The position numbers and the translations under genes were made by a program. From contig NZ_CP065373.1 in assembly GCF_015710575.1 (NCBI RefSeq), positions 3,162,001-3,226,000 on the forward strand: a DNA stretch of 64,000 bases, given 5' to 3'. How positions within the stretch are numbered: position 1 is the stretch's first letter; every line of letters starts with the position of its first letter. Shown here piece by piece: positions 4,207 through 29,782 of this stretch. Under the pieces are notes generated by a model. That model made no database searches. It saw only the letters and a list, made by a program, of their open reading frames with translations, and was not told the origin of the DNA. The stretch comes from Mycolicibacterium mengxianglii (lineage in GTDB: Bacteria; Actinomycetota; Actinomycetes; Mycobacteriales; Mycobacteriaceae).

Positions 4207-5978
<1,772 letters not shown>

Positions 5979-5980
5979 TG

Positions 5981-7189
5981 CTATCCCGAGATCTCGGCCG
6001 GTGCGTGCACCGTTTCCTGCTCGGCCACCGCAACCAGGTACGACTCCACGTTGCGCCGGGTCTCGGTCAGCGAGTCGCCGCCGAACTTCTCCAGGACGGC
6101 GCGGGCGACCACCAGGGCCACCATGGTCTCCACCACCACCGCGGCAGCTGGAACGGCACAGACGTCGGAGCGTTGGTGAATGGCCGCCGCCGCCTCCCCG
6201 GTGGACATGTCCACAGTGGCCAGGGCGCGTGGCACCGTCGAGATGGGTTTCATCGCCGCCCGCACCCGCAGCGGCTGGCCGTTGGTCATGCCGCCTTCGA
6301 GGCCGCCGGCGCGGTTGGTCGAGCGGACCACCCCGTCGGGGCCGGGGTACATCTCGTCGTGGGCCTGGCTGCCGCGCCGGCGAGCGGTGTCGAACCCGTC
6401 GCCGATCTCGACACCCTTGATGGCCTGGATGCCCATCACCGCGGCGGCCAACTGGCCGTCGAGCCGACTCTCGCCGCTGGTGAACGACCCCAGGCCGATC
6501 GGCAGGCCGCGCACGACCACCTCGACGATTCCGCCGAGGGTGTCACCGTCGCGCTTGGCGGCTTCGATCTCGGCGATCATGGACTGCTCGGCAGCCGCGT
6601 CGAAAGCCCGCACCGGACTGTCGTCGATGCGGGACAGGTCGGCGGCTTCCGGCGGCGGACCCAGGTACGGGTCGGAGGCGCCGATGGAGATCACGTGGGA
6701 GACGACTTCGACCCCGAGCGCCTGCCGCAGGAATTCCCGGGCGATGGTGCCGGCCGCCACGCGCGCGGCCGTCTCGCGGGCGCTGGCACGCTCCAGCACC
6801 GGGCGGGCGTCGTCGAAACCGTACTTGAGCATGCCCGCGTAGTCGGCGTGGCCGGGGCGGGGTCGGGTCAGCGGCGCATTGCGCGCCACCTCGAGGTCGG
6901 CGTCGGACACCGGGTCGGCGGCCATCACGGTTTCCCATTTGGGCCACTCGGTGTTACCGATCTCGACGGCGATCGGCCCGCCGAGGGTGCTGCCGTGCCG
7001 CACCCCGGCCAGGACGGTCACCTGGTCCCTCTCGAACTTCATCCGGGCGCCACGGCCGTAGCCGAGGCGACGACGGGCCAATTGGTCGGCGATATCGTCC
7101 GACGTCACCCGCACACCGGCGACCATGCCCTCGACGATGGTCACCAGTGCGCGACCATGAGATTCACCAGCGGTGGTCCAACGCAACAC
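5981..7189 (-). CDS. aroC: Chorismate synthase
   Basis: This FMN-dependent enzyme makes chorismate from EPSP in the last shikimate step. Signatures are [10 protein letters not shown] near the N-terminus, [30 protein letters not shown] and [21 protein letters not shown] prefer the GTG at 7189 ([10 protein letters not shown], 402 residues) because GGAAG sits 9 bases upstream and the M. tuberculosis protein starts at this point; an ATG three codons earlier (7198) is the alternative. It leads the aroC-aroK-aroB group. The start region is divergent from the MFS gene. Confidence 0.96.
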
Positions 7190-17486: not shown

Positions 17487-18335
17487 TCAGTCGTCGGTGG
17501 GCGCGGTGACAAAATCGATGAGCTCTTCCACGCGCCCGATCAGGGCCGGCTCCAGGTCGTTCCAGTCCCGCACGGTCGAGCGAATGCGCTGCCACGCCCG
17601 GGCGATATCGGCCTGGTCGGTGTGCGGCCAGCCCAACGCCTGGCAGACGCCGTGCTTCCAGGAGATGGTGCGCGGGATCTTCGGCCAGGTCCGCAGGCCA
17701 ACCCGGGCGGGTTTGACCGCTTCCCAGATATCGACGTAGGGATGTCCGACGACGAGCGCATGTGAGCCGTACGGGCCGCGGCGCACCTCATCGGCGATGC
17801 GGGTCTCCTTGGACCCTGCCACCAGGTGGTCGACCAGCACACCGAGCCGACGCCCCTGGCCGGGTGCGAAATCGGCGACCAGTGCGGGCAGGTCGTCGAT
17901 GCCGCCCAGGTATTCGACCACCACGCCCTCGACCCGCAGGTCGTCGCCCCACACCTGTTCCACCAGTTCGGCGTCGTGGCGGCCCTCGACGTAGATCCGG
18001 CCCCCGATCGCCGTTCGGGCCCGCATCCGCGGCACCGCTACCGAACCCGACGCGGTGCGGGCAGTGGCCGCCGCCGCCGGCGCCTTGCGGGGCGGGGTCA
18101 GGATGACAGGCTTGCCGTCCACCAGGTAGCCGGGACCCACCGGGAAGCCCCGCGTGCGCCCCTGCCGGTCCTCGAGGTCCATCCGGCCGTACTCGACGCG
18201 TACCACCGCGCCGACAAAACCGGTGGTCACGTCTTCGAGCACCATGCCGATCTCCACCGGCACCTCGGTGGCACGTACCCGGGTGCGCTGGTGCGGGTTG
18301 TCGGCGAGCACGTCCATTCCATAGCGGTCCGTCAC
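17487..18335 (-). CDS. DUF3097 family protein
   Basis: I start at the GTG at 18335 (VTDRYGMDVLADNPHQ), giving 282 residues; the open frame extends further upstream without an obvious start signal. Recognisable stretches are VLADNPHQRTRVRA, the RTAIGGRIYVEGRHDAELVE segment, which resembles a Toprim-like acidic core, and GPYGSHALVVGHPYVDIWEA. The family is confined mainly to actinobacteria and has no assigned function. The Toprim resemblance (Glu in VEGRHD, then a later Asp-rich VLVDHL) is my inference and hints at a nucleic-acid role. Confidence 0.78.
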   Translation of the reverse strand: MTDRYGMDVLADNPHQRTRVRATEVPVEIGMVLEDVTTGFVGAVVRVEYGRMDLEDRQGRTRGFPVGPGYLVDGKPVILTPPRKAPAAAATARTASGSVAVPRMRARTAIGGRIYVEGRHDAELVEQVWGDDLRVEGVVVEYLGGIDDLPALVADFAPGQGRRLGVLVDHLVAGSKETRIADEVRRGPYGSHALVVGHPYVDIWEAVKPARVGLRTWPKIPRTISWKHGVCQALGWPHTDQADIARAWQRIRSTVRDWNDLEPALIGRVEELIDFVTAPTDD

Positions 18336-18527
18336 GGCGGCGATCCTACGAACGGCCTCGGGGATGCCGGCAGCGCCACACCGCAGAGGAGCCGATCGTG
18401 ACCTGGGCGAGACCCGGCGAATTGTGTTGCACCGCCGCAACGGTGATTCGGCTGCAGCGCTCCGTTTTCACCCATGGTGACCCGGGTAGCCGTGGTGGGT
18501 CAGCCCCCACCAACTGTTAGGAGAGCC

Positions 18528-19709
18528 ATGAAGGCCGTCACGTGGCAGGGCAAGCGGGATGTCCGGGTCGAGACAGTGCCCGACCCCAAGATCGAAGAGG
18601 GCACCGACGCCATCATCGAGGTGACGTCCACCAACATCTGCGGATCCGATCTGCACCTGTACGAGGTGCTCGGCGCGTTCATGAACCCCGGCGACATCCT
18701 GGGACACGAGCCGATGGGGATCGTCACCGAGGTCGGTTCGGAGGTCAGCAATCTGAAGGTCGGCGACCGCGTGGTCATCCCGTTCCAGATCTCCTGCGGC
18801 AGCTGCTTCATGTGCGACGAACAGCTCTACACCCAGTGCGAGACCACACAGGTACGTGACCAGGGCATGGGTGCGGCGCTGTTCGGCTATTCCGAACTCT
18901 ACGGTGCGGTACCCGGCGGGCAGGCCGAATACCTGCGGGTCCCGCAGGCCCAGTTCACCCACATCAAAGTGCCCGTCGGTCCCCCGGATTCACGGTTCGT
19001 GTACCTGTCCGACGTGTTGCCCACCGCCTGGCAGGCCGTCCAGTACGCCGGGATTCCCGACGGCGGATCGGTGACCGTGCTCGGACTGGGACCGATCGGC
19101 GAGATGGCGGCGCGGGTGGCCGCACATCTCGGTTACGAGGTCATCGCCGTTGATCTGGTGCCCGAACGGGTGCAGCGGGCGGCCGGCCGGGGAATCCACG
19201 CCATCAACGCCGCCACGCTGAACGGCTCTGTCGGTGATGCGGTGCGGGCGTTGACCAAAGGCCGGGGCACCGACTCCGTGATCGATGCCGTCGGCATGGA
19301 AGCGCACGGCTCACCGGTGGCCAAGCTGGCGCAGCAGATGACCGGAATGCTGCCCGATATCCTGGCCAAACCGATGATGCAGAAAGCCGGCATCGACCGC
19401 CTCGACGCGCTGCTGACCGCGATCGACACCGTTCGGCGCGGCGGAACGATCTCGCTGATCGGCGTGTACGGCGGGATGGCCGATCCGCTTCCGATGTTGA
19501 CGTTGTTCGACAAGCAGATTCAACTGCGGATGGGCCAGGCCAACGTCAAGAAGTGGGTGGACGACATCATGCCGCTGCTCACCGACGACGACCCGCTGGG
19601 CGTCGACACCTTCGCCAGCCACGTCCTGCCGCTCGACGAGGCGCCGCATGCCTATGACATCTTTCAGAAGAAGCAGGATGGCGCCTTCAAGATGATGCTC
19701 AAACCCTGA
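18528..19709 (+). CDS. Zinc-dependent alcohol dehydrogenase (MDR superfamily)
   Basis: This 393-residue medium-chain dehydrogenase starts at the ATG at 18528 after TTAGGAGAGCC. Catalytic zinc ligands are in NICGSDLHLYE and GHEPMGIVTE; structural zinc cysteines are in SCGSCFMCDEQLYTQCE. The Rossmann loop is VLGLGPIGEMAARVA. It belongs to the FDH-like/threonine dehydrogenase-type group with a long insertion before the C-terminus (about 255-295). The substrate is unknown; glutathione-independent formaldehyde dehydrogenase is a possible annotation but not provable here. It stands alone, convergent with the metallopeptidase gene. Confidence 0.88.
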   Translation: MKAVTWQGKRDVRVETVPDPKIEEGTDAIIEVTSTNICGSDLHLYEVLGAFMNPGDILGHEPMGIVTEVGSEVSNLKVGDRVVIPFQISCGSCFMCDEQLYTQCETTQVRDQGMGAALFGYSELYGAVPGGQAEYLRVPQAQFTHIKVPVGPPDSRFVYLSDVLPTAWQAVQYAGIPDGGSVTVLGLGPIGEMAARVAAHLGYEVIAVDLVPERVQRAAGRGIHAINAATLNGSVGDAVRALTKGRGTDSVIDAVGMEAHGSPVAKLAQQMTGMLPDILAKPMMQKAGIDRLDALLTAIDTVRRGGTISLIGVYGGMADPLPMLTLFDKQIQLRMGQANVKKWVDDIMPLLTDDDPLGVDTFASHVLPLDEAPHAYDIFQKKQDGAFKMMLKP

Positions 19710-19738: not shown

Positions 19739-20815
19739 CTAGCCCGCGTTACCCGCGGCGGCGGCCAGCTTCTCCGGATCGGAGGTCACCTCGTCGATCA
19801 CCGTGTGGATGAAGCGCATCTTGTCCAGCACCGCGGCCGGCAGTACGAACGGGTACAGGTCGTCGCGGCCCATGGAGCGGTTGACCATGTTGAGACCCCA
19901 CGCCAGTGGTAGCCACATCTCGATGATGTTGTCGAACCCGCTGGGGCCCAACACTCGTCGCTCCAGAGTGGCCCCGGCTGGGGCGAAGCTGAACGCCGCC
20001 GAGGTGTCCAGGGTGTCCCGGATGTGCAGATAGTGGGCGAAGGTCTCGGCCCAGTCCTCGGCGGGGTGCATGGTGGCATAGGACGAGACGAAGTTCTTCT
20101 CCCATCCCGCCGGAGCACCCTGGCTGTAATGGCGGTCCAGCGCCGCCTGGTAGTCGGCTTCGGAGTCGCCGAACAGCTCGTGGGACCGGGTCATGTAGTC
20201 CGGCGAGACGCCGATGAGACGGTAGAAGTAGTAGTGCCCGATCTCATGACGGAAATGCCCCAGCAACGTCCGGTAGGGCTCGTCCATCGAAACCCGCAAC
20301 TGCTCGCGGTGGACGTCGTCGCCCTCGGCGAGATCCAGTGTGATGACCCCGTTTTCGTGGCCGGTGAACACTTTCTCGTTCTCACTGGACAGCAGATCGA
20401 AAGCCAGTCCGAAATCGGGATCCTCGTCACGGCCGACGATCGGCAGCTTCAGCTCGTGCAGTTCGGCGATGAGCCGGCGCTTGGCCGCCTCGGCCACCGC
20501 GAACGCCGCCAGCGCCTTGGTGTCGGCGTCGTTGGGCCGTGTCCGGGTCAGCCTGCACGACGCGCAGAGCTCGCCCTGCACGGTGCTCATCGGGTTCAGC
20601 CTCACCAGCCAGTTGCATTCGGCCACATGCAGATTGGCACACAACCGGTACTGCCGCGCATCGACGGCGCCGCCGTGCTCGGCATCTTTGCCGGTGGCGA
20701 TCACCAGCATCGCCATGTCGTCCAGTGAGAACCCCACCGGGCTGTTACAGGCCAGGCAGACCGAGTTCTCGAACGTCAGATGCTGTCCGCAGTTGGGACA
20801 CAGGAAGTCACGCAT
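19739..20815 (-). CDS. Zinc-ribbon/HExxH putative metallopeptidase of the ATP-grasp/transglutaminase cluster
   Basis: This 358-residue protein starts at the ATG at 20815 (MRDFLCPNCGQ), about 9 bases after AGGGGGG; the GTG three codons earlier would sit on top of that site. The N-terminal ribbon has CPNCGQ and CLACNSP pairs, with a second cysteine set in LCANLH, AECNW and LCASCR. The catalytic motif is HEIGHYYFYRL (about 196-206), with PAEDWAETFAHYLH downstream supplying a probable third ligand. It matches the putative zinc-binding metallopeptidase family (Rv2568c type). It overlaps the transglutaminase gene by 8 bases and is the last gene of the four-gene operon. Confidence 0.85.
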   Translation of the reverse strand: MRDFLCPNCGQHLTFENSVCLACNSPVGFSLDDMAMLVIATGKDAEHGGAVDARQYRLCANLHVAECNWLVRLNPMSTVQGELCASCRLTRTRPNDADTKALAAFAVAEAAKRRLIAELHELKLPIVGRDEDPDFGLAFDLLSSENEKVFTGHENGVITLDLAEGDDVHREQLRVSMDEPYRTLLGHFRHEIGHYYFYRLIGVSPDYMTRSHELFGDSEADYQAALDRHYSQGAPAGWEKNFVSSYATMHPAEDWAETFAHYLHIRDTLDTSAAFSFAPAGATLERRVLGPSGFDNIIEMWLPLAWGLNMVNRSMGRDDLYPFVLPAAVLDKMRFIHTVIDEVTSDPEKLAAAAGNAG

Positions 20816-21752
20816 CGAGCACACCCCCCTCTATTGGCGCCACATCGACGGCCACATCGATCACACTGCTCTCCGAGTCGGTATAGATGATGCCCCGCAG
20901 CGGCGGAACGTCCGCGTAGTCTCTACCCCAACCGACGGTTATGTAACGTTCGTCGACCATTTGGTCGTTCGTCGGGTCCAGGCCCAGCCACTCCCCCGTC
21001 GGCGTCCACACCGCCGCCCACGCGTGGGTGGCATCCGCGCCCACCATCCGCTCCTTGCCCGGCGGCGGATCGGTGGCCAGGTAACCCGAGATATAGCTGG
21101 CGGCCAGGCCGTTGGCGCGCAGACAGGCGATCGCCAGGCGGGCGAAGTCCTGACACACTCCCTCCCGCGCCTCGAGCACCTCGGCCACCCGGGTGGACAC
21201 CGTCGTCGACCCGGAGCGGTAGGTGAAGTCGGTGAAGATCCGCCCGTTCAGATCGGTCAGGACATCGATGAGCGGTCGGCCGGGGATGAAACTGGGTGCG
21301 GCGTAACGGCGCACCGCATCGGTGATCTCCGGTTTGTGCAGATCGAGGGTGAACTCCGCGGCCAGGGCGCCGTCGATCCCCGTCGGTCGTGCCCCCTCCC
21401 ACGGTGCGCTCGCCGCGCCCGCGGTGTACAGCGCCGGCGGCGGGGCGTCCACCTCGACCACCGACCTGGCCGTCACGTTCAGCCGGTAGTGCCGCGCGGT
21501 GATATGGAAGTAGGAACTGATGTTGCCGTAGACATCCCGGCTGACCGAGCTGTCGGCTGCGCTCGGATCGATATCGAGGGCGTAGGACAGACACCGCTGG
21601 CGCACCGAGTCCCGGGGGGTGAGAAAGCCCCGGCCGTAGGAACTGGTCACCACGTCGGAATACCGGTACATCGTCTGATGGGTCACCTGGTAGCGGCGGC
21701 CGGCACCGGCATCCGGGGCCGGCGGCAGGGTGCCGTCGGGAAACACGCTCAT
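20808..21752 (-). CDS. Transglutaminase-like cysteine peptidase family protein
   Basis: This 314-residue protein has a bacterial transglutaminase N-terminal beta domain (about 20-105) and a papain-like transglutaminase core (about 150-260). The triad is visible: Cys in REGVCQDFARL, His in GADATHAWAAVW and Asp in LGLDPTNDQ. Members are predicted amidases, peptidases or acyl-transferases on peptide or isopeptide bonds. Its ATG overlaps the ATP-grasp stop (ATGA) and its end overlaps the metallopeptidase start, so the three products are made together. It corresponds to Rv2569c of M. tuberculosis. Confidence 0.9.
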   Translation of the reverse strand: MSVFPDGTLPPAPDAGAGRRYQVTHQTMYRYSDVVTSSYGRGFLTPRDSVRQRCLSYALDIDPSAADSSVSRDVYGNISSYFHITARHYRLNVTARSVVEVDAPPPALYTAGAASAPWEGARPTGIDGALAAEFTLDLHKPEITDAVRRYAAPSFIPGRPLIDVLTDLNGRIFTDFTYRSGSTTVSTRVAEVLEAREGVCQDFARLAIACLRANGLAASYISGYLATDPPPGKERMVGADATHAWAAVWTPTGEWLGLDPTNDQMVDERYITVGWGRDYADVPPLRGIIYTDSESSVIDVAVDVAPIEGGVLDA

Positions 21753-24427
21753 GGCATGACCCGGCGCTCATCAGGACCCCACAGCGGCTGCATGCCGCCC
21801 GGCAGTGACAGTTGCGTGGCGGTGATGACATTGGACAACTCCCGCAACGCCGCGAGTACACCCTGGAGCAGGTCCGCCAGCTCGCTGCGCCGGCCCTGGG
21901 GCGACACCACCTCCAGGTCGGCGGGATCCAACCGCCGCAGCCGGGTACTGATCTCGTCAACCAGCCGTTCGGCGCGGGAGCTGTTTGACGCCCCGGGCAG
22001 TGTCCGCAGATCCGCACGCAGCCGTTCCAGCTGAAACACCAGTGATCGCGGGTTCTCGGCGTCGAACAGCAGTAGTTCGGCCACTGCCGCCACACTGACC
22101 TTGCCGTGGTTGCGGCGGCGGTAGATGACCGCCGACTCGCACGCCACCAGGGTGGCTTCGGTGATGGTCTGCTCGGCGCCCGGACTGCGCGGGGTGGACA
22201 TCGTGGCCAGCAGCAGCGCGGCCAGCATGCTTCCCCGCTCGATCCGCTTGCCGATGTCCATCATCGTCCAGCCGACGTCGTGCACCATGGATTCGGCGGC
22301 CACCCCGGACAGCGCGAGCATCCCGGTCATGGTCTTGGAGTGTGCCGCCGCCATCTCGGCGTCGCCGCGCAGATGGGAATCCGGCGGAGAGTCCGAGGAG
22401 TGCAGCACCGCACGGTCGACGGTGGCCAGCACCATCCAGGTGTCGTTGGACATCTGGTCGCGCACCGCCCTTGCTGCCAAACCGAGCCGTTCCACCGACT
22501 GCGCCAGCGATCCGGGACGTTTGCGGTCGGCGGTCAGCAGCCACAGTGTCGTGGGGGCCACCGCGATCATCTCGGCGTAGTCACCGGCTGCCCCGGTGTC
22601 GGTGCCGGTGATGTTGCCCAGCGCCGTCAACAGCACCGGCACGCAGTCGCTGGCGTCGAGGTCCTGGCGGTGGCGGTATTCGTGATAACGCTCGCGGGTC
22701 ACGTTGAGCAGGCGGGCCATCTGTTCGGCGCGCTCGGCGTAGCGACCCGTCCAGAACAGGTCCGACAGCACACGCGGGGAGCTGACGGCGCTGGTGCCGC
22801 TGGCGGTGACCGCAGGCCCCGCCGGTAGGACGACGGCATGCTCCACGCCGACCCTGGCCGACGGCAGAACCCAGATGTCTTTGGCCGCAACACTATTGAG
22901 ATTGAAGGCAGCATCACCCGGGGAGAGCACGTATCCGAGGCCACCGATCATCGGGGCGTACCCGCCGCGTTGCGACACCGCGAAGAGTCGCATCCCGACC
23001 CCGGCCGCCGACAAGCCACCGGAATAGTGATCGGTGGGGGCCGAGGAGAACTGCGGAAGTTCCTGGCCCACCCATTGCCACGGCGTCGCGGTGATTCTGT
23101 CTGCCAGGTCCCGGCGTTGCGCCGCCGACAACCCCGGTCCGACGATCGGGGCGCCGCCGGTGGTCGGTTTGATCAACAGCGAATCCAGATTGGCCAGCAG
23201 GTGGGAGCGTTCCGCGTCGATACCGGCCCAGTACAACGGAGCGGTCGGCAGTTGCGGGGTCTCGCCGAGCAGCATCGCGGCCAGTTCCGGCAGGAACCGC
23301 ATGATCCCAGGGCTTTCCAGGATGCCACTGCCGAGGCTGTTGACCACCGTGACCGACCCGCGGCGTTGTGCCTCCACGAGTCCGACCACACCGAGGCGCG
23401 AGTCGCCCCGCAGATCCAGCGGGTCGGCATAGGCGGCGTCGACGCGGCGTAACACCACATCAACACGTTTCAGGGTGCCCAGCGACCGCATCCAGAGCTT
23501 GCCGTCACGCACCACCAGGTCCGCGTTCTCCACCAGGGGGAAGCCCAGCATCGAGGCCAGGTAGGCCTGGTCGAAGGCGGTCTCGGACAAGATGCCCGGG
23601 CTGAGCACCACGACCACCGGGTCTTCGGCGGCTTCGGGGGCCGCCTCGATCAGCGACAGCCGCAGCGCGTGCGCAAAGGGTGAGGTGGGCCGCGGGGCGA
23701 TGCGCTCGTACAGATCGGGAATGGTGTGGGCGACCACCCGCCGGTCGGCCAGCGCGTAACCCGCCCCCGAGGGCGCCTGTGTCCAGTCCGCATTCACCTC
23801 GAAGCCTTCACTGCCGGCGCGGCTGATATCGCACCCGTGAAGGAACAGTTGGTGACGGCCGGGTACCTCGATTCCGCGGGCGGCCCGGATGTAACCGGGA
23901 TGGGCGAACAGCAGTTCCGGGGGAAGCACTCCGCTGGTGAGGGCCCGCCGCTCGCCGTAGAGGTCCACCAGCACCGCGTCGAGCAGCCGGGACCGTTGCA
24001 CCAGCCCGGCCTGCAGAACGTCCCAGTCCGGCGGTGAGATCAACAGCGGGACGGCATCCAGGTGCCAGGGCCCCGGTTCCGCGGGGTCGAGACTGTTGGT
24101 GGACAGCGCTTCCCCGGCACCGTCGAGGGCGATGTAGGTGATGCCGTCGTTGTCGACGAGCCCACGGACGTCGGTGCGGAGCCGGTTGAGGCCGGCCTTG
24201 CCGCGTTCGCCGAGCACCTCGGCCAGCTCCCGCCACGATTCCCGGACATTGCCCGCCGGGTCCACGAACTCGTCGTAGCCGGACACCGCCGCGCTCCGGC
24301 CTTCGCGCACGTCGAAGAGCGCCTGCTGGGCCAGGGCCTCGCGGTATCCGGCGAGCAGACGGTCGGGGTCACGCCCCCCGGTTTCCCGGCCACCGAGTGA
24401 CCCGGAAATGGGCAGCGATGATGACAA
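21749..24427 (-). CDS. Circularly permuted ATP-grasp fused to an alpha-E domain (predicted peptide ligase)
   Basis: I choose the TTG at 24427 because AGGAG lies 8 bases upstream, giving 892 residues; the ATG at 24460 (903 aa) has no ribosome site. The first half (about 60-500) is the circularly permuted ATP-grasp (COG2308), with NADLVVRDGKLWMRSLG, VVNSLGSGILESPGIMRFLP and GGAPIVGPGLS. The second half (about 555-890) is the helical alpha-E domain (COG2307), beginning VLSDLFWTGRYAERAEQMAR. The two domains are often separate genes but are fused here. Published domain analysis predicts peptide or amide ligation. It follows the DUF2126 gene by about 50 bases. Confidence 0.9.
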   Translation of the reverse strand: MSSSLPISGSLGGRETGGRDPDRLLAGYREALAQQALFDVREGRSAAVSGYDEFVDPAGNVRESWRELAEVLGERGKAGLNRLRTDVRGLVDNDGITYIALDGAGEALSTNSLDPAEPGPWHLDAVPLLISPPDWDVLQAGLVQRSRLLDAVLVDLYGERRALTSGVLPPELLFAHPGYIRAARGIEVPGRHQLFLHGCDISRAGSEGFEVNADWTQAPSGAGYALADRRVVAHTIPDLYERIAPRPTSPFAHALRLSLIEAAPEAAEDPVVVVLSPGILSETAFDQAYLASMLGFPLVENADLVVRDGKLWMRSLGTLKRVDVVLRRVDAAYADPLDLRGDSRLGVVGLVEAQRRGSVTVVNSLGSGILESPGIMRFLPELAAMLLGETPQLPTAPLYWAGIDAERSHLLANLDSLLIKPTTGGAPIVGPGLSAAQRRDLADRITATPWQWVGQELPQFSSAPTDHYSGGLSAAGVGMRLFAVSQRGGYAPMIGGLGYVLSPGDAAFNLNSVAAKDIWVLPSARVGVEHAVVLPAGPAVTASGTSAVSSPRVLSDLFWTGRYAERAEQMARLLNVTRERYHEYRHRQDLDASDCVPVLLTALGNITGTDTGAAGDYAEMIAVAPTTLWLLTADRKRPGSLAQSVERLGLAARAVRDQMSNDTWMVLATVDRAVLHSSDSPPDSHLRGDAEMAAAHSKTMTGMLALSGVAAESMVHDVGWTMMDIGKRIERGSMLAALLLATMSTPRSPGAEQTITEATLVACESAVIYRRRNHGKVSVAAVAELLLFDAENPRSLVFQLERLRADLRTLPGASNSSRAERLVDEISTRLRRLDPADLEVVSPQGRRSELADLLQGVLAALRELSNVITATQLSLPGGMQPLWGPDERRVMP

Positions 24428-24477
24428 CGTCTGTTCTCCTGGTTCGTCGATAACTCTCATGCGTGCGGGCGGGCCCG

Positions 24478-27400
24478 TTATTGCAGCACGGTACGCACTC
24501 GACGAAGGTCCAGGATCCCCGGAGCGCCCACATCGATGGACTGGCGGGCCTGCTTCTCACGCAGATCCGACATGTCGACCTTGCCAGGGGTGAACCCGGA
24601 GGCCTCGAAACGCCGGCCGCGGCGTGACTCGGCCTCCACGGCGTTGACCGGTGGCGAGTCATAGGCCCGCCCGCCGGGATGGGCCACGTGGTAGGTGCAG
24701 CCACCGCGGGACATGCCCGATGCCACCTCGATCAGTTCGAACCGCAGCGGGCCGTCGACGGTGATGGTGGGGTGCAGGGCACTGGGCGGCTGCCACGCGC
24801 GGTAGCGCACCCCGCCGACCTGGATATCGGTGTTGTCGGTGGCCAGCAGCGGGACCGGATAGCCGTTGCAGGTGACGATGTAGCGCTGTCGGTCGGCTCC
24901 GATGAGTCGCACCTGCAGCCGCTCCACCGACGAATCCACGTAGCGCGCGGCGCCGCCGGCAGTCGACTCCTCGCCGAGGGTGTTCCACGGTTCGATCGCG
25001 CCGCGTAACTCGATCTCGACTCCGTCGAAGACCGCGGTGCCGATCCGCGGGAAGCGGAACTCGGTGAACGGGTCCAGCCAGCTGGTGTCGAAGTTGATCC
25101 CCCGCGCCCGCAGATCGGCAGCGACTTCGGCGATGTCACGAATGATGAAGTGCGGCAACAGGTACCGGCCATGCAGATTGTCGCCGTGGCGGATCAGCGG
25201 AGCCCGCAGCGGCTCATCCCAGAACCACGACACCAGTGAACGCACCAGCAGTGACTGCACCATCGCCATCTGGTAGTGCGGTGGCATCTCGAATCCGCGC
25301 AGTTCCAGCAGCCCGAGGCGCCCGCGAGGGCTGTCGGGGCTGTAGAGCTTGTCGATGCAGAACTCGGCGCGGTGGGTGTTGCCCGTGATGTCGGTCAGCA
25401 GATGCCGCAGCGCCCGGTCGCTGACCCAGGGTTGCGGATTCTTCGTCTCCCGGGTCAGCCGCGCGATCTCGGCGAACGCGATCTCCAACTCGTAGAGCGC
25501 TTCCGGGCGGCCCTCGTCGACACGGGGTGCCTGCGAGGTGGTGCCGATGAATCGGCCGGCGAACAGATAGGACAGCGACGGATGCCGCTGCCAGTAGGTC
25601 AGCAGGGACACCAACAGGTCGGGGCGGCGCAGCAGCGGTGATTCCGCGGGGGTGAGCCCGCCCAGGGTGATGTGGTTGCCACCACCGGTGCCGCCGTGGG
25701 TCCCGTCGACGTCGAATTGCTCAGTGGACAACCGCGCCAGCCGGGCCTGGGCATACAACGTCTCCAGTTGGGCACGCTGTTCGGCGAAGCTACGCGTCGG
25801 GGCGACGTTGACCTCGATGACCCCCGGGTCGGGGGTGACCGACATCGACTCCAGCCGCGGGTCCGCCGGCGGCCCATAACCTTCCACGACGATCGGGCAG
25901 CTGAGCTTGGCCGCCGCCTCCTCCAGTCGGGAGATCAGGTCGACGAAGTCGTCCAGGGCGTCGGTGGGCGGCAGGAAGACATAGAGCAATCCGTCCCGGA
26001 CCTCGGCGACCATCGCGGTGGTGGGGGCGTCGTCCGACTCGTCGATGTCTGCTGCTTCCGCCTGCGCAACGTCTTCGCGCCCGGGCAGCGGGCCACGGTC
26101 GACCAGCGGATCACCCGGATAGGTGGGGCGCGGCGGCTTCCAGTTGACGGAGTTCAACGGCAGCCGCAGTCCCGCCGGGGAATCACCGTCGAGCAGCACG
26201 ATGCGGCCGCGGCGCAGCCGCCAGTCCGCACTCGCCCAGCCGAGCTCGTCCTCACGCCGGTGCAACGGCAGTACGTAGGCCGTCGGCTCGACGACGGCGT
26301 CTTCGAGGCGGGACAGTAATTCTTCGCGCAGTTGCCCACTGTCGGCCTCGAGGTCGTCCTCCGCGGCTACCGCCGCACCGGCGGGCCGCCGCACCGATGC
26401 CGACAGGCGGCTCAGCGCATCCTCGTAGGCCGGCCGTACCTGACTGTCCGGCAGGCCCAGGCCGTCGGCCACGGCGCCGAGCAGCTGCGCCCCGATATCC
26501 GGCGCGAGGGAGGGTGGCACATCCGCGTCCGGTCCCGACGACCACGGGTCCGCCAGCAGCGTCGCGTCACTCCACAGGGGTTCGCCGTCCTTACGCCACA
26601 ACAAGCTGATCTGCCAGCGCGGCAACGGTTCTCCGGGATACCACTTGCCCTGGCTGCGCTGCACCAGTCCCTGAGGTGCCCACATCTCTTTGAGCCGGGC
26701 GGCCAGGGCGGAGGCGCGTTCCCGCTTGTGCGGGCCGTCGGCTTCGATGGTCCACTCCGGATCCACCTGGTTGTCGATCGAGACGAACGTCGGTTCGCCG
26801 CCGACGGTCAGCCGCACGTCCGCGTCATCGAGGCGGCGGTCCACCCGGGCACCCAGGTCGATGATCGAGCCCCACGCCGCTTCGGTGTAAGGCAGTGTGA
26901 CCCGCGGATCTTCGTGCACCCGGGTGACGGTGTTGGAGAAGTCCAGCACCGTCTCGGCGGGGCCGGTGGCACCGGTGATCGGCGCCGCCGACGCCGGATG
27001 CGGTGTCGCCGAGAGCGGGATGTGCCCTTCACCGGCGAAGAGCCCCGACGTCGGATCAAGGCCGATCCAACCGGCCCCGGGAATGTAGACCTCGGTCCAG
27101 GCGTGCAGATCGGTGAAATCGGCTGCGGGCCCGGACGGCCCGTCGAGCGCTTGGACGTCGGAGGCCAACTGGACGAGATAGCCGGAGACGAAGCGGGCGG
27201 CCAGGCCCAGCTGCCGCAGCACCGACACCAGCAGCCAGGCCGAGTCGCGGCAGGAGCCGATGCCGCTGCGCAGCGTGAAGTCCGGGGTCTGCACCCCCGG
27301 CTCCATCCGCACGCTGTAACCGACATCGGCGTTGACGGCCCGGTTCAGGGCCACCAGGAAGTCGATGGTGCGTCCGCCGGGGGCGATGCGGAAATTGCGT

Positions 27401-27813
27401 ACCCACTCGGTCGCCAGATCGCCGGGACCCGTGCCCACGTCGATTTCGTCGACTGGGCGCAGGTAGGGCTTGAGATCCTCGGCCAGGGCCTTGGGGTAGG
27501 TGAAGGGGAAGGTCTCTGCCCAGTCCTCGATGAAGAAATCGAAGGGGTTGATCACCTTCAGGTCGGCGATCAGCCCGACGTTGATGGCCAGCTGACGGGT
27601 GCGGTTGGGAAACACCAGCCGCGCCAGGAAGTTCCCGAACGCGTCCTGCTGCCAGTTGAGGAAATGGTCGGCGGGTTCGACTTCCAAGGAGTACGCCTCG
27701 ATCGGGGTCCTCGAGTGCGGAGCCGGACGTAGACGTACTACGTGCGGGTGCACCTCTACCAGCCGGTCGAAGGTGTAGGTGGTGCGATGCTCCAGCGCCA
27801 CTTTGATTCCCAT
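24478..27813 (-). CDS. Giant transglutaminase-DUF2126 protein
   Basis: The ATG at 27813 (MGIKVALEHRTTYTFDR) gives 1111 residues; GGGA lies 9 bases upstream. Residues 1 to about 290 form a transglutaminase module with Cys in GSCRDSAWLL, His in FTDLHAWTEVY and Asp in GLDPTSGLFAG. The rest is DUF2126 (COG4196), with DVRLTVGGEPTFVSIDNQ, the GGTGGGNHITLGG segment and LFAGRFIGTTSQAPR. DUF2126 resembles glutamate-cysteine ligase/glutamine synthetase-type amidoligases in published domain work, so the protein could both cut and join amide bonds. It is the first gene of the four-gene operon and corresponds to Rv2566. Confidence 0.9.
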   Translation of the reverse strand: MGIKVALEHRTTYTFDRLVEVHPHVVRLRPAPHSRTPIEAYSLEVEPADHFLNWQQDAFGNFLARLVFPNRTRQLAINVGLIADLKVINPFDFFIEDWAETFPFTYPKALAEDLKPYLRPVDEIDVGTGPGDLATEWVRNFRIAPGGRTIDFLVALNRAVNADVGYSVRMEPGVQTPDFTLRSGIGSCRDSAWLLVSVLRQLGLAARFVSGYLVQLASDVQALDGPSGPAADFTDLHAWTEVYIPGAGWIGLDPTSGLFAGEGHIPLSATPHPASAAPITGATGPAETVLDFSNTVTRVHEDPRVTLPYTEAAWGSIIDLGARVDRRLDDADVRLTVGGEPTFVSIDNQVDPEWTIEADGPHKRERASALAARLKEMWAPQGLVQRSQGKWYPGEPLPRWQISLLWRKDGEPLWSDATLLADPWSSGPDADVPPSLAPDIGAQLLGAVADGLGLPDSQVRPAYEDALSRLSASVRRPAGAAVAAEDDLEADSGQLREELLSRLEDAVVEPTAYVLPLHRREDELGWASADWRLRRGRIVLLDGDSPAGLRLPLNSVNWKPPRPTYPGDPLVDRGPLPGREDVAQAEAADIDESDDAPTTAMVAEVRDGLLYVFLPPTDALDDFVDLISRLEEAAAKLSCPIVVEGYGPPADPRLESMSVTPDPGVIEVNVAPTRSFAEQRAQLETLYAQARLARLSTEQFDVDGTHGGTGGGNHITLGGLTPAESPLLRRPDLLVSLLTYWQRHPSLSYLFAGRFIGTTSQAPRVDEGRPEALYELEIAFAEIARLTRETKNPQPWVSDRALRHLLTDITGNTHRAEFCIDKLYSPDSPRGRLGLLELRGFEMPPHYQMAMVQSLLVRSLVSWFWDEPLRAPLIRHGDNLHGRYLLPHFIIRDIAEVAADLRARGINFDTSWLDPFTEFRFPRIGTAVFDGVEIELRGAIEPWNTLGEESTAGGAARYVDSSVERLQVRLIGADRQRYIVTCNGYPVPLLATDNTDIQVGGVRYRAWQPPSALHPTITVDGPLRFELIEVASGMSRGGCTYHVAHPGGRAYDSPPVNAVEAESRRGRRFEASGFTPGKVDMSDLREKQARQSIDVGAPGILDLRRVRTVLQ

Positions 27814-27871: not shown

Positions 27872-28792
27872 TCAGCGGTCGGCGGAGTGCGGCAGCGTGG
27901 GGCGCAGGATCAAGACCAGCACTCCGGCCACCACGATGCCGACCAGGTTGACGACGAGCTGCAGAGCCGATTTCGCGGCCAGATCCCAGTCGCCGAGGGT
28001 TGCGGCCACGGCGGCGAAGCCGGCAGCGGTCACGGTGTAGACCGAGATGAAGACCCCCACCAGCCCGGTGGCCTTCGCCGACACCAGCGACAGCATCCCG
28101 GCGGCGCCGGCCAGCAGCGCCACCACGAACGACACCGGGCCCACCTGGAAGATGAAGTCGACTTCCTTGAGGTGGTGGACGTCGTCCAGGGTGAGCCACC
28201 CGAGGGCCTCGGCCGCCATGGTCGCCAGTGAGGTGATGGCCATGGCAACTGGAAACCCGACCACCAGCGCCAGGGCCGCCCGTCGGGTCAGGTCTGCACG
28301 GCGGCGCACCAGTGCCACCGACAGCGCGGCCAGCGGGCCGAACTCCGGGCCGAGCACCATGGCACCCACCACGGTGACGGTGGAGTCGGTGACCACACCG
28401 ATCGCGGTCAGCAGACACGCCAATGTGAGAAAGAGCAGGAAGGTGACGCTGAGCGCGGATTCCTCGCGGGTGCGGCCGATCAGCTCATCCCACAGGAGCG
28501 CGTCGGCGGGGTCTCCCTCGGCGGCGTCCTCCGCCTTGTGCGCCTTGGTCGACAGCACGGTGTCGAGCACTTCCAGGGTGATGGCGCCGCGGTGCTGGAT
28601 GTCGAGTTCTTTGAGTTTCTTGATGACGTGGTTGGCGCACTCGCGGGCGATGTCGGCGGTGATCTCGTCGCCGGGCGGTTCGAGTGCCGCCCCCGGATAG
28701 AGCAGCAGGTTCGCCACGCCGACCTCGCCGCGCAGGATCTCCAGGACCGGCTCCCGCAGCTCGTCGGGTGCGATCACCCGTAAATGCAGCAC
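27872..28792 (-). CDS. DUF389 family membrane protein
   Basis: The GTG at 28792 opens 306 residues. An N-terminal ACT-like or ferredoxin-like soluble part (about 1-80) leads into six or more hydrophobic segments (about 115-300). The family core is FLLFLTLACLLTAIGVVTDS followed by TVVGAMVLGPEFGPLAALSVAL. DUF389 proteins are of unknown function; an uncharacterised transporter is a common guess. It lies upstream of the DUF2126 gene on the same strand, with 58 bases between, and could be cotranscribed with the peptide-modification operon. Confidence 0.85.
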   Translation of the reverse strand: MLHLRVIAPDELREPVLEILRGEVGVANLLLYPGAALEPPGDEITADIARECANHVIKKLKELDIQHRGAITLEVLDTVLSTKAHKAEDAAEGDPADALLWDELIGRTREESALSVTFLLFLTLACLLTAIGVVTDSTVTVVGAMVLGPEFGPLAALSVALVRRRADLTRRAALALVVGFPVAMAITSLATMAAEALGWLTLDDVHHLKEVDFIFQVGPVSFVVALLAGAAGMLSLVSAKATGLVGVFISVYTVTAAGFAAVAATLGDWDLAAKSALQLVVNLVGIVVAGVLVLILRPTLPHSADR

Positions 28793-28954
28793 CGGCGCAA
28801 GTTAACCGACTCGCAGGGCAGAAAACACGTGCAGCACGTCAAGTGTGCGGCTTGCACATTCCTATGTTATATATTCACACTGTGTTCGCGGCCACATGGC
28901 CGGCAACCGGCGAAACGGAGACAATTCTGTGAATTTTCCACAGTTGGGTGCTTC
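28793..28954 (+). promoter_or_regulatory. AT-rich divergent control region upstream of the DeoR gene
   Basis: In strong contrast to its flanks, 28858-28880 is AT-rich (TATGTTATATATTCACAC) and includes the perfect 9-bp palindrome CACACTGTG at 28876-28884. It separates the DUF389 gene (minus) from the deoR-kinase-transporter operon (plus). A DeoR-family repressor normally binds such sites near its own promoter. I could not assign -35 and -10 boxes with good spacing. Confidence 0.45.
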
Positions 28955-29782
28955 GTGAGTTCCGACGTGCGGACTCGCCGTGACCGGATCGAGCAGCTGG
29001 TGCGCACCGCCCGCGAGATCGGATACGCCGAGCTGGCGGCTGAGTTCGAAGTCTCCGAGATGACCATTCGGCGCGACGTCGAGGCGCTGGAGACACTCGG
29101 CGTGCTGCGCCGGGTGATGGGTGGCGTGATCGCGGTGCAGGGCAAGGACAACGAGCCCTCGTTCGCGACCCGAATGGCTGACGCCGCGCAGGAGAAAAAC
29201 CACATCGCCGACATGGTCGCCGACCTGATCGGCCCCAAGGAAACTCTCATCCTCGATTCCGGCAGCACTGCGCTGGCTGTCGCGCACTCGCTGCGGGGAC
29301 GCGGACTCGGTCTGACGGTGGTGACCCCGAGCATCATGGCCGCGCTGGCACTGGTCGACGAACCCGACACCAGCGTCGTGCTCACCGGTGGTGAACTGCG
29401 CTCCGGCGAGCTGAGCCTGATCGGCCCGAGCGCGGAAGACACGCTGTCCCATTACAACTGCGACACCTACGTGATGGGGGTTGCCGGTATCGACGGCGAA
29501 CGCGGAATCTCCGACTACCACCAGGCCGAAAGCCGGGTCAAACGTGCCGCCAGCAGCCGTGCCGACCGGGTGATCGTGGCCGCGGACAAGAGCAAGCTCG
29601 GCCGCGTCACCTTCGTCAGCATCGCCGCCCTGTCGCAGATCGACGCCATCGTCACCGACGGCCCGTCCGACCATCCGACGCTGGTGGCCGCACGCGGTGC
29701 CGGCGTCGAGGTCATCTGCGTTGTCGGACAGAGTGTTCCGGCCCCGGCGGCGGACACCCACACAGATAGGGAGCCGACATGA
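28955..29782 (+). CDS. DeoR/GlpR family transcriptional regulator
   Basis: This 275-residue repressor starts at GTG 28955 (VSSDVRTRRDRIEQLV). The winged HTH spans about 5-60, with recognition-helix sequence VSEMTIRRDVEAL. The C-terminal DeoRC sugar-phosphate sensor domain (about 75-240) carries LILDSGSTALAVAHSL and VVLTGGELRSGELSLIG. Such regulators respond to a phosphorylated sugar intermediate, here likely the product of the FGGY kinase. Its stop overlaps the kinase ATG as ATGA. It is the first gene of the catabolic operon and likely autoregulates it. Confidence 0.92.
   Translation: MSSDVRTRRDRIEQLVRTAREIGYAELAAEFEVSEMTIRRDVEALETLGVLRRVMGGVIAVQGKDNEPSFATRMADAAQEKNHIADMVADLIGPKETLILDSGSTALAVAHSLRGRGLGLTVVTPSIMAALALVDEPDTSVVLTGGELRSGELSLIGPSAEDTLSHYNCDTYVMGVAGIDGERGISDYHQAESRVKRAASSRADRVIVAADKSKLGRVTFVSIAALSQIDAIVTDGPSDHPTLVAARGAGVEVICVVGQSVPAPAADTHTDREPT

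Follow-up and report, generated by a model that had tools for sequence, protein, structure and literature searches.

Four adjacent genes of Mycolicibacterium mengxianglii, here called TGD, CPA, TG2, and ZMP, are the subject of this analysis. They lie on the minus strand within a window of 64,000 nucleotides (contig NZ_CP065373.1, positions 3,162,001 to 3,226,000), and positions below are those of the window unless marked C1 or attributed to another locus. A first-pass annotation, made from the sequence alone, had described them as an operon holding the parts of an undescribed peptide ligation and processing system. The cluster looks like a self-contained peptide-joining machine but is probably not one. 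CPA, its ATP-grasp protein, has a degenerate nucleotide site, and the same genome encodes an intact paralogue elsewhere.

TGD (24478..27813, ATG start at 27813) is composed of a transglutaminase-like domain and DUF2126. CPA (21749..24460) is a protein of 903 amino acids in which a circularly permuted ATP-grasp domain with a degenerate nucleotide/metal site is fused to alpha-E. TG2 (20808..21752) is a stand-alone transglutaminase-like cysteine enzyme (C200, H243, D259). ZMP (19739..20815, ATG start) is a metallopeptidase with a zinc ribbon and the HEIGH motif; its longest open reading frame (ORF) opens at GTG 20824, from which E260 is numbered below, and the ATG is at 20815. The Pfam content is Bact_transglu_N, Transglut_core, and DUF2126 for TGD, CP_ATPgrasp and Alpha-E for CPA, Bact_transglu_N and Transglut_core for TG2, and Zn ribbon and Peptidase_Mx for ZMP. 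Bit scores are far over the cut-off (DUF2126 1140.9, CP_ATPgrasp_2 408.6, Alpha-E 233.9, Peptidase_Mx 332.4).

All four ORFs were recovered at the positions, on the strand, and with the domains first assigned to them. The proposed overlaps of 4 to 8 bases at two of the three junctions are also present: CPA and TG2 share 4 bases (ATGA), TG2 and ZMP share 8 when the ZMP ATG at 20815 is taken, and a gap of 17 bp separates TGD from CPA. No strongly hydrophobic segment was found in any of the four proteins, so none has an obvious signal peptide or transmembrane segment.

The ATP-grasp site of CPA and the other active sites

CPA is homologous to circularly permuted ATP-grasp ligases in both fold and sequence. 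Where the intact paralogue has E195-D196-N197 (the E.N motif), CPA has A224-D225-W226 (23783..23791, minus strand); compared with 3n6x and the paralogue, the LEDN stretch reads NADW. The glycine loop is also lost, reading KPTTGG followed by a gap versus KPVEGSGGYG in the intact copy, and it is degenerate across the clade. Motifs were counted in 145 rows, made up of copies found in the fetched loci, with matches covering <250 amino acids excluded. Both E and N are absent from 112 of 112 copies in the CPA clade and kept in 33 of 33 copies in the other. Two of the 80 mycobacterial loci (L075 and L115) give no ATP-grasp row, as their contigs end there. In a tree, one fully supported branch divides the intact and degenerate clades, and the result is the same when the motif columns are removed (73 rows each).

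Intact copies share 79 invariant columns. Among 40 less redundant rows of degenerate copies, 28 of these columns are kept (conserved in at least 90% of the rows), 21 are lost, and 30 lie in between. The lost columns include E195, N197, R199, D462, the loop glycines G408 and G411, and the NSS..GG stretch; D182, R310, and the PSG motif are among those kept. According to the available part of one source, residues R139, D141, E163, and N165 of Cp1B surround the adenosine, and alanine changes there abolish or weaken activity (PMC12568646). Since these are adenosine-site residues, the lost columns would lie on the ATP side of CPA, given an inferred residue match to Cp1B. The domain is not decaying. 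It is under strong purifying selection, with dN/dS (nonsynonymous to synonymous substitution rates) of 0.03-0.13 in all 10 pairs taken from 59 loci, which falls among the values of the neighbouring genes. CPA thus described appears to be a pseudo-ATP-grasp that has lost the use of ATP.

The alpha-E domain of CPA (21815..22777, minus strand, amino acids 562-882) retains its GRYxER motif. Fusion to alpha-E as such is not tied to site loss, because fused or unusual copies (L189, L190, L192, L193, and L196) retain the E.N motif; judged from these sequences, the loss would characterize a clade and not the fusion. Two of these loci, the actinobacterial L189 and L190, each encode a single ATP-grasp fused to a partial alpha-E, in frames of 737 and 736 amino acids with E.N intact.

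The remaining active sites were read from alignments in which the window sequence is counted twice in each row set. The N-terminal transglutaminase-like domain of TGD (amino acids 1-285; C188, H237, D253) has Cys, His, and Asp in 107 of 107 rows. Among non-gap rows, the TG2 triad is found in 104 of 104 (Cys), 103 of 103 (His), and 102 of 103 (Asp). HExxH of ZMP is present in 87 of 87 rows, and E260, a candidate third ligand, in 86 of 86 non-gap rows. The first-pass claim that the catalytic triads and the HEIGH motif are intact is therefore right. The degenerate site of the ATP-grasp domain, the only one to show the active-site loss that had been named as grounds for refutation, was overlooked.

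The DUF2126 part of TGD (amino acids 286-1104) is probably an active ligase of the glutamine synthetase (GS) fold. VIA-align of the predicted AlphaFold2 model gives this fold, aligning 24610..26901 (minus strand, ~amino acids 305-1068) to glutamine synthetases and other GS-fold ligases. The candidate ligase residues E340, E667, H714, and E837-L-R839 show no variation in 107 of 107 rows. In matching these candidates to the conserved acidic, His, and Ex[RK] motifs listed in PMC2588565, strands were assigned by us, and the sixth motif has E, not D, as its last residue.

The intact paralogue and gene order among relatives

The genome has two alpha-E genes, one in the window and a second at C1:1535494-1539047, in an ATP-grasp/alpha-E/transglutaminase trio with an intact E.N motif. 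Co-occurrence was followed in 296 sampled actinobacterial genomes. An intact copy, defined as a CP_ATPgrasp_2 match of at least 492 bits, is found in 54. A degenerate copy, defined as a weaker match in an ORF also holding alpha-E, is found in 21, and all 21 fall within the 54. DUF2126 occurs in 16 genomes, each among the 21, and Peptidase_Mx is over the cut-off used in 23, each among the 54 (27 match at E <= 0.001). Hypergeometric values for these overlaps are inflated by relatedness. The degenerate motif was read in 18 of the 21 genomes (all except G007, G034, and G043) and the intact motif in 25 of the 54, including the 21 partner genomes. Excluded from both sets were G202 and G212 (single fused copy, partial alpha-E), G192 (split reading frame), and G200, G366, G380, and family f32 (no alpha-E match); five excluded copies enter the motif count as the E.N-retaining loci named above.

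Both halves occur together in nine fetched loci. In four genomes of family f45, a single strand bears genes for the intact ATP-grasp, alpha-E, TGD, CPA, and TG2. Four genomes of f43 encode CPA and TG2 alongside the intact ATP-grasp and alpha-E, and in two of these TGD and ZMP are present as well. On a Caballeronia plasmid the full set of six genes is found, ZMP lying on the opposite strand. No third transglutaminase was detected within these nine stretches.

Gene order was compared in the 80 mycobacterial loci. It is collinear in 51, the transglutaminase-peptidase pair is flipped as a unit in 18, and the remaining 11 loci are truncated or incomplete. The four genes lie within a few kb in 69 of the 69 loci where all are seen (51 + 18). 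Among the inverted loci are those of M. gordonae, szulgai, asiaticum, and simulans, species that we take to be slow growers. Every DUF2126-bearing genome outside the genus among 121 sampled (DUF2126 in 20 of 121) supplied a further locus, 12 in total (L117-L128). These come from other genera of the order, L128 from the same family. All 12 keep their first three genes in collinear order, so the co-directional layout is the older, as the first-pass annotation had suggested; the peptidase comes next in 6 of 12. DUF2126 is absent from L162 and L163, same-genus and same-family genomes with ATP-grasp, transglutaminase, and peptidase genes, and from L164, with ATP-grasp and transglutaminase. In L115, TGD and the beginning of the ATP-grasp gene are ~1.3 kb apart (5499-6793), and the latter gene is truncated where the contig ends.

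Upstream of TGD, a DUF389 membrane protein gene identified by Pfam (27872..28792, minus strand) ends 58 bp away. It was overlooked at first pass and is probably an optional first member of the operon. A DUF389 gene lies on the same strand within 150 bp of the operon in 18 of the 65 mycobacterial loci (from the 80) that have >1.1 kb of upstream sequence, and at 152-1591 bp in 8 more. In Tsukamurella, the DUF389 gene overlaps the ATP-grasp gene. In 23 mycobacterial loci (L103-L114 among them), its place is taken by a gene with a hydrophobic stretch and a proline/glycine-rich tail at its end. Divergent from the DUF389 gene is a DeoR-family regulator gene (28784-29782, plus strand), the longest-ORF 5' ends overlapping by 9 bases. 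On the other side of the operon, an alcohol dehydrogenase gene (18474-19709, plus strand) sits between ZMP and a DUF3097 gene (17487-18368, minus strand). In seven relatives (L037, L053, L069, L072, L087, L088, and L101), the DUF3097 gene closely follows that for the peptidase and shares its strand.

No convincing precursor peptide was found among 1779 small ORFs in the 80 mycobacterial loci, which does not prove its absence. Small-ORF families reach at most 23 loci, and the ten most widespread were judged by eye to resemble tails of longer neighbours or frame shadows.

A proposed two-locus system and its alternatives

We judge, at somewhat better than even odds, that the window operon is the accessory part of a cytosolic system split over two loci, which would form and cleave amide bonds in a substrate that is a peptide or an amino acid. 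This draws on what was directly seen: gene content and order, co-occurrence, loss or retention of candidate active sites, two model folds, and purifying selection. The core, at C1:1535494-1539047, would be the intact circularly permuted ATP-grasp ligase with alpha-E and a transglutaminase. In TGD, the GS-fold ligase would make an amide through an acyl phosphate, and the fused cysteine transamidase/hydrolase would act on a related bond. CPA, as a pseudo-ATP-grasp with alpha-E, would serve as an ATP-independent scaffold for the substrate or the core ligase, binding it or holding it in position. TG2 would be a second cysteine transamidase/hydrolase, to judge by its triad, and ZMP a metallopeptidase for trimming or recycling. 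Joint action of the loci, the make-and-cut chemistry, and a cytosolic location are what we infer. A bolder version is offered only tentatively: CPA might be a dedicated non-catalytic subunit of a two-locus heteromeric ligase, in which the intact ATP-grasp gives the acyl phosphate, CPA with its own alpha-E holds the growing peptide, and TGD both makes and breaks a second bond, for a reversible non-ribosomal peptide or tagging cycle.

Several points weigh against a two-locus system. It is drawn from genes and predicted models. The degenerate copy spans 6 families only, and kinship confounds the co-occurrence. The intact locus, with a transglutaminase of its own, might work by itself. Because pseudoenzymes sometimes gain a different nucleotide chemistry, CPA can only be presumed not to use ATP. 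For DUF2126, HHalign against our own GCS2 profile gave a probability of 0.6%, which with shallow profiles is not significant; controls with unrelated domains gave 0.2-0.6%, and an ATP-grasp control scored as well as DUF2126. Plain Foldseek gave 8 matches for TGD at E <= 0.001, with no GS-fold enzyme among them, VIA-align only re-aligns candidates supplied by Foldseek, and the AlphaFold2 model of TGD is only moderately confident (predicted local distance difference test, pLDDT, 71.5). Lastly, the TG2 homologue Rv2569c is reported, in the accessible portion of the source, to be a cell-wall serine protease insensitive to two cysteine protease inhibitors (PMC11081392). That report fits a cytosolic cysteine enzyme badly and is at odds with the conserved Cys-His-Asp triad, and it counts against our reading if it is valid for TG2.

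A self-contained operon, in which every enzyme including the ATP-grasp is active and a peptide is ligated and processed without outside help, is improbable: the E.N motif and glycine loop are gone throughout the clade of 112, and an intact paralogue is present in each of the 21 sampled genomes. Because CPA lacks both elements and the intact paralogue lies elsewhere, the idea that all ligation parts are in this operon is not supported. The ligation and processing system first proposed survives as a conserved set of ligase, transamidase, and peptidase parts, less so as one complete within the operon. The same losses of the nucleotide loop and both E.N residues make it unlikely that CPA is an enzyme whose old cleft has gained a new chemistry, e.g., nucleotide transfer or ATP-free ligation via a TG2 acyl-enzyme. 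That idea does draw on the 28 kept columns (D182, R310, and PSG included), the strong purifying selection, and the pairing of CPA with TG2 without DUF2126 in L160-L164, L173, and L174. Glutathione synthetase-like nematode effectors, in which this fold has been turned to another use, are also represented among the structural matches (5oeu, 5oev, and 5oet).

Somewhat less likely still is a hydrolase-centred operon. Here the metallopeptidase and the transglutaminase-like proteins would break down peptides or work at the cell surface, and the ligase-like domains would have a regulatory role. The three hydrolase-type active sites are intact, and the partial account of Rv2569c as a cell-wall protease (PMC11081392) would suit it. 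The lack of strongly hydrophobic segments speaks against it, as does the invariance of the candidate DUF2126 residues, which is unexpected in a domain that is only regulatory. Least probable is that the four genes have independent roles and are held together by chance or shared transcription. Slow growers have broken the co-directional order, with pairs up to 3.3 kb apart, CPA-TG2-ZMP occurs without DUF2126 in L162 and L163, and the L115 ATP-grasp gene begins well past TGD; against this, the genes stay close in every complete mycobacterial locus, and the same gene set recurs in Betaproteobacteria.

Known systems and significance

Circularly permuted ATP-grasp and alpha-E clusters are found in several phyla. 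Operons of this kind were reportedly treated by Iyer et al. in 2009, and we know of no established product. Glutathionylspermidine synthetase/amidase is a known synthetase-hydrolase pairing, and structural comparison matched CPA to, among others, the ATP-grasp half of this enzyme. Unlike in that enzyme and trypanothione synthetase-amidase, the ligase half of TGD is GS-fold, not ATP-grasp, and the ATP site of CPA is degenerate. In the Pup ligase/depupylase system (PafA, Dop) there is a small protein substrate, whereas no convincing gene for one was found beside the window operon.

The Anbu operon is made up of Anbu, ATP-grasp, alpha-E, and transglutaminase genes, as described in the available parts of two sources (PMC6376114, PMC5666114). 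The intact locus likewise encodes a circularly permuted ATP-grasp, alpha-E, and a transglutaminase together. In the window, however, alpha-E is fused to a degenerate ATP-grasp, alongside a GS-fold ligase and a metallopeptidase, and none of the genome's three proteasome-family (PF00227) matches is at either locus. Two of these matches are adjacent at 2.056 Mb and are presumably 20S subunits. The third, a divergent protein (36 bits; L229 1354-2127, minus strand; C1:3748171), lies away from these two and from both alpha-E loci; it has Thr1, Asp17, and Lys33 spacing by our count and no Anbu entry among its sequence matches.

In Pseudomonas, the rlo operon encodes an ATP-grasp protein, a protease, and an inactive membrane transglutaminase, and rim pairs the ATP-grasp RimK with the protease RimB (PMC12239564). 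These differ in having RimK-like ATP-grasps (RloC has 24% identity to RimK) and retropepsin-like proteases, and the part of that source consulted mentions neither alpha-E nor DUF2126 for them. The transglutaminase-DUF2126 family, e.g., Rv2566, shares the architecture of TGD and was named a carboxylate-amine ligase, predicted to be peptide-forming, in 2008 (PMC2588565), so the system was not wholly undescribed. That paper, as far as its available text goes, treats a single protein and mentions neither a degenerate ATP-grasp nor an intact partner locus.

The families and the ligation idea are thus already published. The literature searched contained no report of either the degenerate ATP-grasp or its proposed dependence on an intact partner, with the likeliest source, Iyer et al. 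2009, outside its coverage. A search on DUF2126 found nothing, and one on pseudoenzymes and ATP-grasp brought up only TTLL12 and no report on a CPA-type copy.

Should the fused copy prove to be a pseudoenzyme in need of a distant intact partner, assays on the window operon alone would target the wrong catalyst. The proposed system singles out DUF2126 and the distant ATP-grasp as the ligases to assay. It also predicts a common phenotype for deletions at both loci, which makes the question testable. If it is true, CPA would be an ancient ATP-grasp pseudoenzyme maintained by strong selection.
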